DNA from: Chloroflexota bacterium
GTDB taxonomy: Bacteria > Chloroflexota > Anaerolineae > Anaerolineales > Anaerolineaceae
NCBI GenBank assembly: GCA_009773005.1
Contig: WOUT01000022.1
Location: forward strand, 1-41,310
Direction: 5' to 3'
Length of the DNA stretch: 41,310 nt
A program made the position numbers and the translations under genes. Under the pieces are notes generated by a model that had not been told where the DNA came from, searched no databases, and was given only the letters and a program-made list of their open reading frames with translations. Shown here in pieces: positions 32,217 through 34,625 of the stretch. The first letter of the stretch is position 1. Every line of letters starts with the position of its first letter.

Positions 32217-32690
32217 CCAGAACCGAGTATCTACATGTGCACGATGCCCAAACACGGGAAAGTTGATTTCTCTGCAAGAGCGTGGAGCAACCAAACTGCA
32301 TAATACATGCTTGAGTTTGATGTGGGCGCTATTATTGACTCTCTTGTACCAGATACAAAATCGCGACTTAAGGATATCCTCAAAATGACTGCTTGCCGCT
32401 CATGATAAGCCTCTTCGCGGGCAGACGGATTTGATTATCGCGATAAAATACCTCAGAAAAATCATTCAATCTCTCAAAATAGGGGCAGCCTAGTTTTAGA
32501 TAATTTTTTCAACTATCTTTTATATGGGAATCACACTCGATCTAGTATGAGCGGCTTCCCTTACGATGGAAGAGTTAGAAAAATCGCTTTAACTTGATAC
32601 CGTATTCCTTAATTCTCCTATGGTTAACCAGTTCACTTTTATGCAGATAACGGTTCACTTTTCAATTTAAAATAACATGAAAATTATTGC
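32217..32690. other. Gene-free gap upstream of the cys promoter with a direct repeat
   Basis: I see no supportable gene in this AT-rich stretch of about 470 bases. It contains the direct repeat GTTCACTTTT at 32631-32640 and 32653-32662, spaced by 22 bases (about two helical turns), ending about 30 bases before the -35 box at 32693. This may be an activator site; the rest shows nothing clear. Confidence 0.4.
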
Positions 32691-32692
32691 TA

Positions 32693-32720
32693 TTGACACA
32701 ATACAATTATCGAATATAAT
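32693..32720 (+). promoter_or_regulatory. Sigma70 promoter of the cysK-cysE operon
   Basis: TTGACA (32693-32698) and TATAAT (32715-32720), both full consensus, are separated by 16 bases. Transcription is expected from about 32727, giving a leader of about 205 bases before cysK. Confidence 0.8.
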
Positions 32721-32755
32721 CAGACAAAATAAGTCGTGTATGGTTTGGAGTAAAA

Positions 32756-32797
32756 ATGAAGCAAAATTGCTTGTGTCAAAGGCGGGGAACGATCTAG
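32756..32797 (+). CDS. Cysteine-containing leader peptide of the cys operon (13 residues)
   Basis: The frame reads MKQNCLCQRRGTI followed by TAG. It has a good ribosome site, GGAG at 32747-32750, five bases before the ATG, and lies about 29 bases after the predicted transcription start. Two of 13 codons are Cys (TGC 32768-32770, TGT 32774-32776), a rare amino acid, directly before a segment that can pair with downstream RNA. This is the layout of leader peptides in amino-acid attenuators, here for cysteine biosynthesis genes. That the peptide is made and senses Cys-tRNA is inference; the ORF, its ribosome site and its position are seen directly. Confidence 0.7.
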   Translation: MKQNCLCQRRGTI

Positions 32798-32889
32798 CCA
32801 CCGCCAGAGCATAACCCCTCACGGTCAACTTTTCAGGCGGCGGTAGACGTGTCTCCGCACAGGTATTGTGCAGCGCTACAACCGCTTTT
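32781..32889 (+). promoter_or_regulatory. Candidate attenuator with four mutually exclusive pairing segments
   Basis: Segment 1 is GGCGG (32781-32785, within the leader ORF). Segment 2 is ACCGCC (32800-32805, right after its stop codon). Segment 3 is GGCGGCGGT (32836-32844). Segment 4 is ACCGC (32881-32885) followed by TTTT. Pairs 1:2, 2:3 and 3:4 are all possible and compete. A ribosome stalled at the Cys codons would cover segment 1 and leave 2 free to pair with 3 (read-through). A ribosome reaching the stop codon would cover 2 and allow 3:4 (termination). Weak points are the short T-run and the 36-base loop of 3:4, which contains a small hairpin (GCACA 32857-32861 / TGTGC 32867-32871). Confidence 0.55.
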
Positions 32890-32932
32890 GATTTAAGTTG
32901 GCCGTATTAATTTAAAAAGATTGGATCGATAA

Positions 32933-33865
32933 ATGAAAATCGCAAATGACGTCACTGAACTGATCGGCAACACGCCGCTAGTTAAACTCAACCGCCTGAC
33001 CGAAGGAAGCGTCGCCACTGTTGTGGCAAAACTGGAGTATTTCAACCCCTCGCACAGCGTGAAAGACCGCATCGGGGTTTCGATGGTAAATGCCGGAGAA
33101 AAAGCCGGACTGATCCACAAGGACACGATTTTGATCGAACCAACCAGCGGAAACACGGGCATCGCGCTGGCTTTTGTGGCGGCGGCGCGCGGCTACAAAC
33201 TGGTGTTGGTGATGCCGGACACGATGAGCCGCGAACGGCAGATGCTGCTCAAAGCCTATGGGGCTGAATTGATCCTCACTCCTGGCAGCGAGGGCATGGC
33301 GGGAGCAATTCAAAAAGCCGAGGAGATCGCTGCCTCAGACAATCGTTTTTTTATACCCCAGCAATTCAAAAATCCTGCCAATTCAGAAATCCACCGCCAG
33401 ACAACGGCAGAAGAGATCTGGCGCGATACGGATGGGAAAGTTGATATTGTTGTGGCAGGCGTCGGCACCGGCGGCACGATCACCGGGGTCGGCGAGGTTC
33501 TAAAATCCAGAAAACCCTCGGTGAAAATGATCGCAGTGGAACCGGACGCCTCGCCGGTGCTCTCAGGCGGCGCCAAAGGACCCCACGTTATTCAAGGTAT
33601 TGGCCCCGGTTTTGTTCCTGAAATTTTGAATACGTCCATTTACGATGAGATCATCCGGGTAACCAATGACAATGCGCTGCAAACTGCGCGTGAAATGGCG
33701 ACCCGCGAAGGGCTGCTGGTTGGCATTTCCTCAGGCGCGGCGACCTGGGCGGCGCTGCAAGTGGCTGCCAGGCCTGAGAATAAAGGCAAGCTCATTGTGG
33801 TGATCATCCCCTCTTTTGGGGAGCGTTACCTAAGCACGCCGCTTTTTGCCAACCTGGCTGAATAG
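32933..33865 (+). CDS. cysK: O-acetylserine sulfhydrylase (cysteine synthase)
   Basis: A 310-residue PLP enzyme making cysteine from O-acetylserine and sulfide. The PLP lysine is K44 in HSVKDRIG, the substrate loop is TSGNTG (71-76), the phosphate-binding loop is [10 protein letters not shown], and the C-terminal SSGAA is present. The length is typical for CysK. Its start has GGA nine bases upstream. It is followed 22 bases later by cysE, which makes its substrate, so the operon encodes the two-step serine-to-cysteine route, and the products may form the cysteine synthase complex. The long leader upstream suggests feedback by cysteine. Confidence 0.95.
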
Positions 33866-33887: not shown

Positions 33888-34625
33888 ATGCCTTTTTCAC
33901 TGATCCAATCCATCCGCGACGACATTCAATCCGTTTTTGACCGCGACCCGGCGGCCCGCTCAACCCTGGAATTGCTGCTGGCGTATCCGGGACTGCATGC
34001 CGTCTGGGCGCACCGTACCGAACATTGGTTGTGGGAGCACGGGCTGAACCTGTTTGCGCGCTGGTTGTCGCACGTTACCCGTTTTTTCACCGGTATTGAA
34101 ATTCACCCCGGCGCAAAGATCGGCAGTGGATTCTTCATCGACCACGGCATGGGGGTCGTGATCGGCGAAACTGCCGAGATCGGCAACCGGGTCACGCTGT
34201 ATCATGGGGTCACCCTGGGAGGGACGAGTTTTCAAAAAGGGAAACGCCATCCGACCATCGAAGATGAAGTGGTGATCGGCGCTGGCGCAAAGATCCTGGG
34301 CGCCATCACGATTGGCTCTCACAGCCGGATCGGGGCAAACGCGGTGGTGGTGAAAACCGTTCCCCCGAATTCGGTGGTGGTAGGGATACCCGGGCAAGTG
34401 GTCAGCCGCAGCCTGCCCGCCGGGGCTGGTCCGGATCTGGAGCACGGCCGCTTGCCGGACACACTGGGTGACTCGGTAGCTTCCCTGATGAACCGCCTTG
34501 ATTTGGTAGAATCACTCCTGCATATGCAATTGAAAGATGCAACAACCGGAGAAAAACAACCTCCGCCGGTGAGAGTTCACACCCCAACCGACGGGGTGTG
34601 GCACGGCGAAGATTTTATGATCTAA
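33888..34625 (+). CDS. cysE: Serine O-acetyltransferase
   Basis: A 245-residue acetyltransferase making O-acetylserine from serine and acetyl-CoA. An N-terminal helical part is followed by a left-handed beta-helix with hexapeptide repeats ([69 protein letters not shown]). The conserved catalytic His is in [10 protein letters not shown]. The C-terminal extension of about 60 residues is longer than in many short SATs and ends DFMI; an Ile end is typical for tails that insert into the CysK active site, which is known for CysE-CysK complexes. The ribosome site AGGAGG lies seven bases upstream of the ATG. Confidence 0.93.

Follow-up and report, generated by a model that had tools for sequence, protein, structure and literature searches.

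A putative cysteine-codon attenuator family upstream of sulfur genes in Chloroflexota

Introduction

In a genome of the family Anaerolineaceae (Chloroflexota; assembly GCA_009773005.1), the genes for cysteine synthase A (cysK) and serine acetyltransferase (cysE) follow a leader in which a short open reading frame (ORF) carries two closely spaced cysteine codons. Could this leader sense the supply of cysteine through the ribosome and, if so, which of its RNA segments would make the switch? Attenuators of the trp/his type combine an ORF holding codons for the amino acid of the pathway, an antiterminator exclusive of an intrinsic terminator, and a biosynthetic operon downstream. Most of what is known of ribosome-mediated attenuation comes from Proteobacteria; few attenuators for cysteine have, to our knowledge, been described, and Chloroflexota is a phylum whose regulation is little studied. 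An earlier note on this locus had read the leader as a cysteine-codon attenuator, a reading that the comparative analysis reported here supports with one structural correction.

Results

Organisation of the leader

In the window, the whole 41,310-nt stretch of contig WOUT01000022.1 that was analysed, the consensus promoter, the GGAG motif and the 13-codon ORF with TGC-TTG-TGT named in the earlier note were all found on the sequence (Table 1), and the coordinates likewise place segment 1 inside the ORF, segment 2 directly 3' of its stop codon and the last arm, CCGC, before a short T-run. Promoter-like boxes were seen by eye at the equivalent position in relatives, and a loosely defined Shine-Dalgarno-like motif was present in 64 of the 131 distinct family members described below. 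The Cys-Leu-Cys-Gln-Arg-Arg-Gly codon pattern occurred once in the window and in 0/100 shuffles. Folding of the hairpin stretch at 32818-32925 gave -38.5 kcal/mol (z = -4.08), with none of 200 shuffled versions equally stable; the whole leader showed modest extra stability over shuffles (z = -1.64; 14/200 equally stable). A search against Rfam families returned no match at gathering thresholds in the whole window and none at E <= 1 in 32680-32960, so that a riboswitch, T-box, S-box or other Rfam leader family was rejected.

Table 1. Positions of leader features and downstream genes in the window
Feature	Position	Strand	Basis
Sigma-70-type promoter, TTGACA-16-TATAAT	32693-32720	+	boxes 32693-32698 and 32715-32720, read directly
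Shine-Dalgarno-like GGAG of leader ORF	32747-32750	+	read directly; five bases 5' of ATG 32756
Leader peptide ORF, 13 codons, MKQNCLCQRRGTI	32756-32797	+	translation
Putative regulatory Cys codons, TGC-TTG-TGT	32768-32776	+	TGC 32768-32770, TGT 32774-32776
Segment 1, GGCGGGG, in ORF; proposed 5' strand of antiterminator	32781-32787	+	1:4 pairing data
Segment 2, CCACCGCC, directly 3' of stop; putative antiterminator partner of segment 3	32798-32808	+	2:3 cognate preference
Segment A, ACGGTCAACTT, predicted 5' outer arm of terminator	32821-32831	+	A:A' covariation
Segment 3, CAGGCGGCGG, common to proposed antiterminator (with 2) and terminator (with 5)	32833-32843	+	
Segment 4, CTCCGC, proposed 3' strand of antiterminator; pairs with segment 1, one G-U here	32853-32858	+	
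Segment 5, CCGC, then first terminator U-run, TTTT	32882-32889	+	3:5 helix, T-richness
Segment A', AAGTTGGCCGT, predicted 3' outer arm of terminator	32895-32905	+	folding, covariation, cognate test
cysK, cysteine synthase A	32933-33865	+	TIGR01139, 473.2 bits against a cut-off of 350.95
cysE, serine acetyltransferase	33888-34625	+	Hexapep and SATase_N matches

Just 5' of the promoter, about 50 bases within 32620-32680 recur with 79-83% identity at three places on two other contigs. By eye, the ORFs beside these copies resemble those of insertion sequences (integrase-like at locus L002, IstB-like at L003), so the segment may be an old insertion-sequence end. At another locus (L014, ~1375-1395) the -10 box abuts the ATG codons of the leader, and the peptide may therefore be translated there from a leaderless message.

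Members of the family and their taxonomic reach

Plain DNA similarity matched the leader in 14 of 147 family genomes (its own and 13 others), in all cases before cysK with cysE next. These 14 close members encode the peptide C-L/M-C-x-x-R-G, and their conservation extends past the ORF. A covariance model (R1) built from them matched 91 of the 147 family genomes at E <= 0.01, with 108 matches in total, and at the same threshold 56 of 396 genomes of the class, many of them weakly; 32 places of the class search fell between E 1e-4 and 1e-2, and seven of these were looked at. Across the phylum, 31 of 400 genomes were matched at E <= 0.001, all from the order of the window's genome, a count to be read with the stricter filters applied in searches above 40 genomes. 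Class members outside this order that appear genuine by content are L072 (metY), L073 and L109 (both sulfurtransferase).

A pattern scan of 84,980 species, requiring TGC.TGTGT and GGCGGGG, returned 113 stretches, 99 of them titled as Chloroflexota or its members. A gene of our query set lay within 2.5 kb in 91/99 of these; among the eight misses, seven had 340 nt or less of sequence downstream and one (L182) was a true miss. The 14 stretches with other titles (13 from other phyla and one 'bacterium') had no query-set gene nearby (0/14) and were set aside as chance matches. This difference indicates that, at the sensitivity of the scan, the element is a feature of Chloroflexota and mainly of the window's own order. 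L076, L092, L108, L111, L182 and a low-scoring second match in L123, all lacking a query-set gene downstream, were also dismissed as chance, as were L260 and L262, which do contain Cys-x-Cys yet precede none of the query genes.

Loci from the model and pattern searches, together with three extra matches, were pooled and reduced from 176 to 149 distinct elements, those sharing identical first 110 nt being counted once. From a first batch of 74 matches, 16 secondary ones (E 0.024 or worse) and five duplicate places had been dropped, and from a second batch of 46, six secondary ones (E 0.089 or worse). A query-set gene started less than 450 nt downstream of 131/149 elements (85 from model-found and 46 from pattern-found loci), whose alignment has an effective sequence number of 101. 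The 18 elements without such a gene comprised nine not titled Chloroflexota, three at a sequence end and six judged to be chance.

Genes downstream of the leader

Within the family genomes, 104 of the 108 model matches stood before a sulfur gene or one kind of ABC transporter: 82 preceded one of 110 cysK places by no more than 400 nt, and the other 26 divided into 12 before cystathionine beta-synthase, four before cysE, one before cysM with a JAB gene, five before a peptide-type ABC transporter, and four (L092, L111, L260, L262) before none of these. The window's own genome holds a second copy of the leader (G000:C4, L077) before a cystathionine beta-synthase gene whose protein passes the TIGR01137 cut-off.

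The genes downstream of the 131 distinct elements were cysK (59), cysM (41), cystathionine beta-synthase (12), rhodanese-type sulfurtransferase (9), DUF4395 (5), cysE (2), ABC binding protein (2) and metY (1). As the query set consisted of 12 proteins from the window and some of the pooled loci, self-matches account for the only metY case and for one ABC case out of two; 'cysM' denotes the best-scoring NCBIfam model, below its cut-off (318.5 against 394.2), and DUF4395 and the ABC transporter are classed as sulfur genes by company only. A Prok-JAB protein follows cysM in many of the cases read.

DUF4395 genes precede cysK under the leader at L070, L075, L166 and L188, with a thioredoxin between the two at L070 and, by its sequence, at L075; this company hints that DUF4395 takes part in sulfur transfer. 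An ABC transporter with a family-5 solute-binding protein is found under the leader at L096, L116, L257, L259 and L261, and in four of these five the leader peptide reads CLCxxRGIPFLxSFG; from the leader one would expect the substrate to be a peptide that contains cysteine or a glutathione-like compound.

Conservation of the leader ORF and its cysteine codons

Cys-x-Cys was kept in 130/131 elements, a count that is partly by construction, as the model and pattern routes both favour these bases. Loss of the ORF or of its cysteine codons in relatives, which the earlier note had named as grounds for abandoning its reading, was therefore not what we found. The first cysteine codon was TGC in 125, TGT in five and AGC in one; the second was TGT in 131/131, an invariance that for the 46 pattern-found elements is largely by construction, and weak pairings of TGTG with the CGCA of segment 4 or with GTGCG, seen in the stem scan, may bear on this invariance. 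Between the two cysteines stood L (64), M (42), I (10), S (9), V (4) or T (2). An ATG in the same frame, with no stop codon intervening, preceded the cysteine codons in 129/131 (against 3 and 12 for the other frames), and the stop codon followed seven to nine codons past the first cysteine in 109/131 and eight to nine in 105/131. The leaders thus share with the attenuator class a short ORF holding codons for the amino acid of the pathway.

A check independent of the model gave the same picture. At 28 cysK places without a model match, of which 25 were used (G033:C11, G039:C15 and G044:C129 were left out), a short Cys-x-Cys ORF lay upstream in 15/25, against 0.97 +/- 0.90 in dinucleotide shuffles and one on the opposite strand, and was absent from 10/25. 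Ten of the 15 had the family layout, with the first base of the antiterminator 13 or 14 nt past the first base of the first cysteine codon; three had other designs, and two (L232, L254) were left unassigned.

Different cysteine leaders stood before cysK at some of these places. At L244 (1-631) and L250 (1-402) the peptide contains ...CMCMAM... and is accompanied by GGGAGCA/TGCTCCC and, apart from that pair, by a terminator-like hairpin; this is a second design for the same gene in the same family. At L236 (1-591), the short ORF upstream of cysK contains ...CCMCMC..., and a terminator-like hairpin with a T-run comes after it; this may be a third design, of poly-Cys type.

A covarying terminator

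When mutual information was computed over the 131 sequences with no structure assumed, the top nine column pairs fell on the A:A' diagonal (with no more than 55% pairing in one of the nine) and the tenth-ranked pair belonged to 3:5, lower ranks being mixed with columns that do not base-pair. The same two helices ranked first in a scan of all stems, with 302 compensated cells for A:A' and 79 for 3:5. We further compared the stability of each element's own duplex with that of pieces exchanged between sequences of less than 70% identity, a cognate test in which relatedness is controlled only through the identity limit and negative pairings; here A:A' gave t = -22.7 and 3:5 t = -7.1. In 72 diverse rows, 3:5 was paired in 87.4% of cells, 41 of which had changed on both sides (0/500 shuffles as high); slid by three columns it was paired in 75.2%, with a covariation score of 0.382 against 0.386 in register. 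The flank of segment 4 gave a weaker cognate signal with segment 5 (t = -3.9), consistent with pairing within the terminator.

T-runs (at least 5 T in 8 nt) were found in 106/131 elements against a background of 10%, and U-runs follow segment 5 and, in many members, also A'. The covariation of A:A' and 3:5 indicates that an intrinsic terminator is formed by A:A' enclosing 3:5 and, on sequence grounds only, it lies before the first gene, as in the attenuator class. The 3:4 stem that the earlier note had called weak proves to be the inner part of this larger hairpin, closed by ACGGTCAACTT/AAGTTGGCCGT, a predicted strong terminator. In L026, L027 and L028, from the same genus, A:A' was missing by eye, which would leave termination there to 3:5 and its U-run.

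An antiterminator that begins inside the coding region

The pairing of segment 1 with segment 4 was nearly universal: its core, GCGGGG/CCCCGC, was paired in 99.5% of cells in the 72 rows and in 97-100% per pair over the 131. With flanks, 1:4 showed a clear cognate preference (t = -9.6; flanks alone -6.0), and the core by itself showed none (-1.3) because it hardly varies, so that support comes from the flanks and from outlying members. In the ten model-free leaders with the family layout, which include the seemingly close relatives L251-L253, differences in segment 1 or in its flank are matched by changes in segment 4, which re-make 1:4 by compensation, as in L246 (TGCGGAATAG/CTATTCCGCA, 10 bp), L240 (14 bp) and L249 (13 bp); mean cognate energy was -18.6 against -13.7 kcal/mol, and 0/5000 permutations were as good. 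Segments 2 and 3 also preferred their cognates (t = -6.8), with a U-A/A-U exchange at one pair among the 14 close members, and were paired in only 55% of cells in the 72 rows. Segment 1 can pair with segment 5 as well (91-100% per pair), with 0 compensated cells, and cognate preference was absent for 1:3, 1:5, 2:4, 2:5, A:4 and 2:A'.

The antiterminator is most likely formed, to judge from these pairings, by 1:4 together with 2:3. It would be exclusive of the terminator and overlap it, as in the attenuator class, since the terminator hairpin contains segments 3 and 4, a relation read from the sequence alone. The earlier note had been right in expecting competing segments and stems that covary in relatives, as both terminator and antiterminator helices do; its listing was incomplete, CTCCGC (segment 4) being able to pair with segment 1 and having gone unlisted. 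In the trp/his geometry it had proposed, segment 1 can pair with segment 2; the supported partner of segment 1 is segment 4 (GCGGGG/CCCCGC) and not segment 2.

Mean energies were -45.0 kcal/mol for the terminator and -35.1 for the antiterminator region, the latter rising to -21.3 when segment 1 was masked (a mean cost of 13.8). As the terminator is the more stable at equilibrium, the antiterminator must form first, which the order of synthesis allows.

Proposed mechanism

The element is, on the strength of these comparisons, in good probability a cysteine-codon-sensing, ribosome-mediated transcription attenuator. Transcription would start just 5' of the short ORF, and RNA polymerase would then make segments capable of two mutually exclusive folds: an antiterminator, in which segment 1 in the ORF pairs with 4 and segment 2 past the stop codon with 3, and a terminator, in which A pairs with A' and encloses 3:5. 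With Cys-tRNA plentiful, a ribosome at the stop codon would mask segments 1 and 2, no antiterminator would form, and transcription would end before the gene. With Cys-tRNA short, a ribosome held at the cysteine codons would leave segment 1 free, the antiterminator would form and the sulfur gene would be transcribed. The recurrence of a Cys-x-Cys leader and a switching hairpin before sulfur genes suggests that these bacteria probably sense cysteine shortage through ribosome stalling on cysteine codons.

The first antiterminator base lies 13-14 nt past the first base of the first cysteine codon; in the window, segment 1 is 13 nt past that codon, and both cysteine codons fall outside the proposed helices. 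With that codon in the A site, the front edge of the ribosome would presumably reach about the base before segment 1, and with the second (TGT) in the A site the ribosome would, on the same assumed footprint, cover segment 1. The fixed spacing suggests that the first cysteine codon is decisive. Translation of the ORF, Cys-tRNA as the signal, the decisive stall codon and the direction of the response are all inferred.

Discussion

The closest competitor to this attenuator model is a classic trp-type arrangement, in which segment 1 would act as a protector by pairing with 2, a ribosome at the second cysteine codon would cover 1 and free 2 for 3, and 1:4 would be incidental. Most members could form helix 1:2 (GGCGG/CCGCC), each pair being present in 79-99% of the 131, with one compensated cell, and 90% of cells being paired if the register is moved by three columns; with the terminator, this helix makes up the minimum-energy fold of the window leader. 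On the assumed footprint, a ribosome holding TGT in the A site would cover segment 1, and 2:3 shows cognate preference. Even so, we regard it as unlikely: the cognate preference so marked for 1:4 with flanks, and missing from its core alone, is absent from 1:2 (t = -0.3, with flank +0.9), which has no compensated cell in the 72 rows, whereas outlying members restore 1:4 through compensatory changes, with up to 14 bp. Arrest by the nascent peptide, with Cys-x-Cys stalling the ribosome upon a small molecule, metal or redox state, would fit the fixed spacing of the cysteines and the Arg-Gly that usually comes next, but this Arg-Gly is forced by the RNA segment GGCGGGG, the residues around the cysteines vary, including the middle one, the first codon may be TGC or TGT, and the genes controlled are those of cysteine and sulfur; we consider this very unlikely.

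A similarly small probability, if anything a lower one, goes to translational or Rho-dependent control, which the earlier note had kept in view and in which the ribosome site of cysK would be buried in structure or the leader would be a Rho site, as has been suspected of mycobacterial cys leaders. The window copy does have a poor, degenerate U-run (GTATTAATTT) behind A', and Rho-type control has been proposed for terminator-less actinobacterial cys leaders in the available part of PMC1262725; the intrinsic terminator features make it less likely, as a covarying hairpin is followed by U-runs in most members (106/131) and the window hairpin ends at 32905, ahead of the cysK start at 32933. Hardly credible is a riboswitch that binds cysteine, O-acetylserine or a different sulfur metabolite and overlaps an ORF by chance: several bases are nearly invariant and the regulon is one pathway, but these bases fall in the cysteine codons and segments 1, 3 and 4, and no Rfam family matched the leader even at E <= 1.

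Returning to the attenuator model, one covarying family of RNAs, with well over a hundred members, would tie a single codon signal to a sulfur regulon that takes in CysK-CysE, a CysM-JAB sulfur-carrier route, sulfurtransferase-SufE, cystathionine beta-synthase and a peptide-type importer, and would offer functional hints for companions such as the ABC transporter and the DUF4395 proteins. We give an even chance to a wider proposal, a cysteine 'attenuon': one RNA device, mainly in one Chloroflexota order, through which ribosome position would set a broad set of sulfur genes, with the coding region supplying an antiterminator strand, the 13-14 nt serving as a ribosome-footprint ruler, and a ribosome at the first cysteine meaning on and past it off. 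If so, an untranslated ORF would give read-through, the reverse of trp; the 1:2-plus-terminator fold of the window leader bears on trp-like termination of untranslated RNA. The spacing would also provide a natural ruler for how ribosome position gates RNA folding.

Mycobacterial polycysteine leaderless ORFs were reportedly described by Canestrari et al. 2020. In Actinobacteria, cysteine leader peptides before cys operons or cbs have been published, with no conserved terminator hairpin according to the available part of the source (PMC1262725). The family shares with these, as described there, the placing of cysteine codons within a short ORF ahead of such genes; theirs are cysteine runs near the stop codon, whereas here Cys-x-Cys lies 5' of a covarying antiterminator and terminator, with the stop eight to nine codons past the first cysteine in the 105/131 noted above. 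Closer in kind is uORFC-8-2 before cysS in Rhodobacterales, which the accessible text of PMC8632094 presents as a computational candidate for cysteine-codon attenuation with an intrinsic terminator, as ours is, with tandem cysteine codons, usually at positions 14 and 15 and within the first stem. It differs, as far as that text goes, in its single target, cysteinyl-tRNA synthetase, and its phylum; our elements have one codon between the cysteines and first downstream genes from families other than cysS in 131/131, a separation made by description and not by sequence. The earlier note's statement that such an attenuator was not described holds for Chloroflexota in the literature searched, a weak absence since only open-licence papers were covered, the available parts of PMC4833913, PMC9094748, PMC2965389, PMC13236596 and PMC10219788 containing no description of the element; beyond the phylum it does not hold, given the published Rhodobacterales candidate (PMC8632094) and actinobacterial leaders (PMC1262725).

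Compared with the trp/his type, the family is alike in its short ORF with pathway codons, its mutually exclusive structures and the biosynthetic operon downstream. It differs in having two cysteine codons around one variable codon and not a run, a proposed antiterminator strand that starts within the ORF, a 1:2 protector without covariation support, and a terminator with an outer covarying stem, A:A'. The element would thus work like a trp-type attenuator, yet in a variant form that is new.
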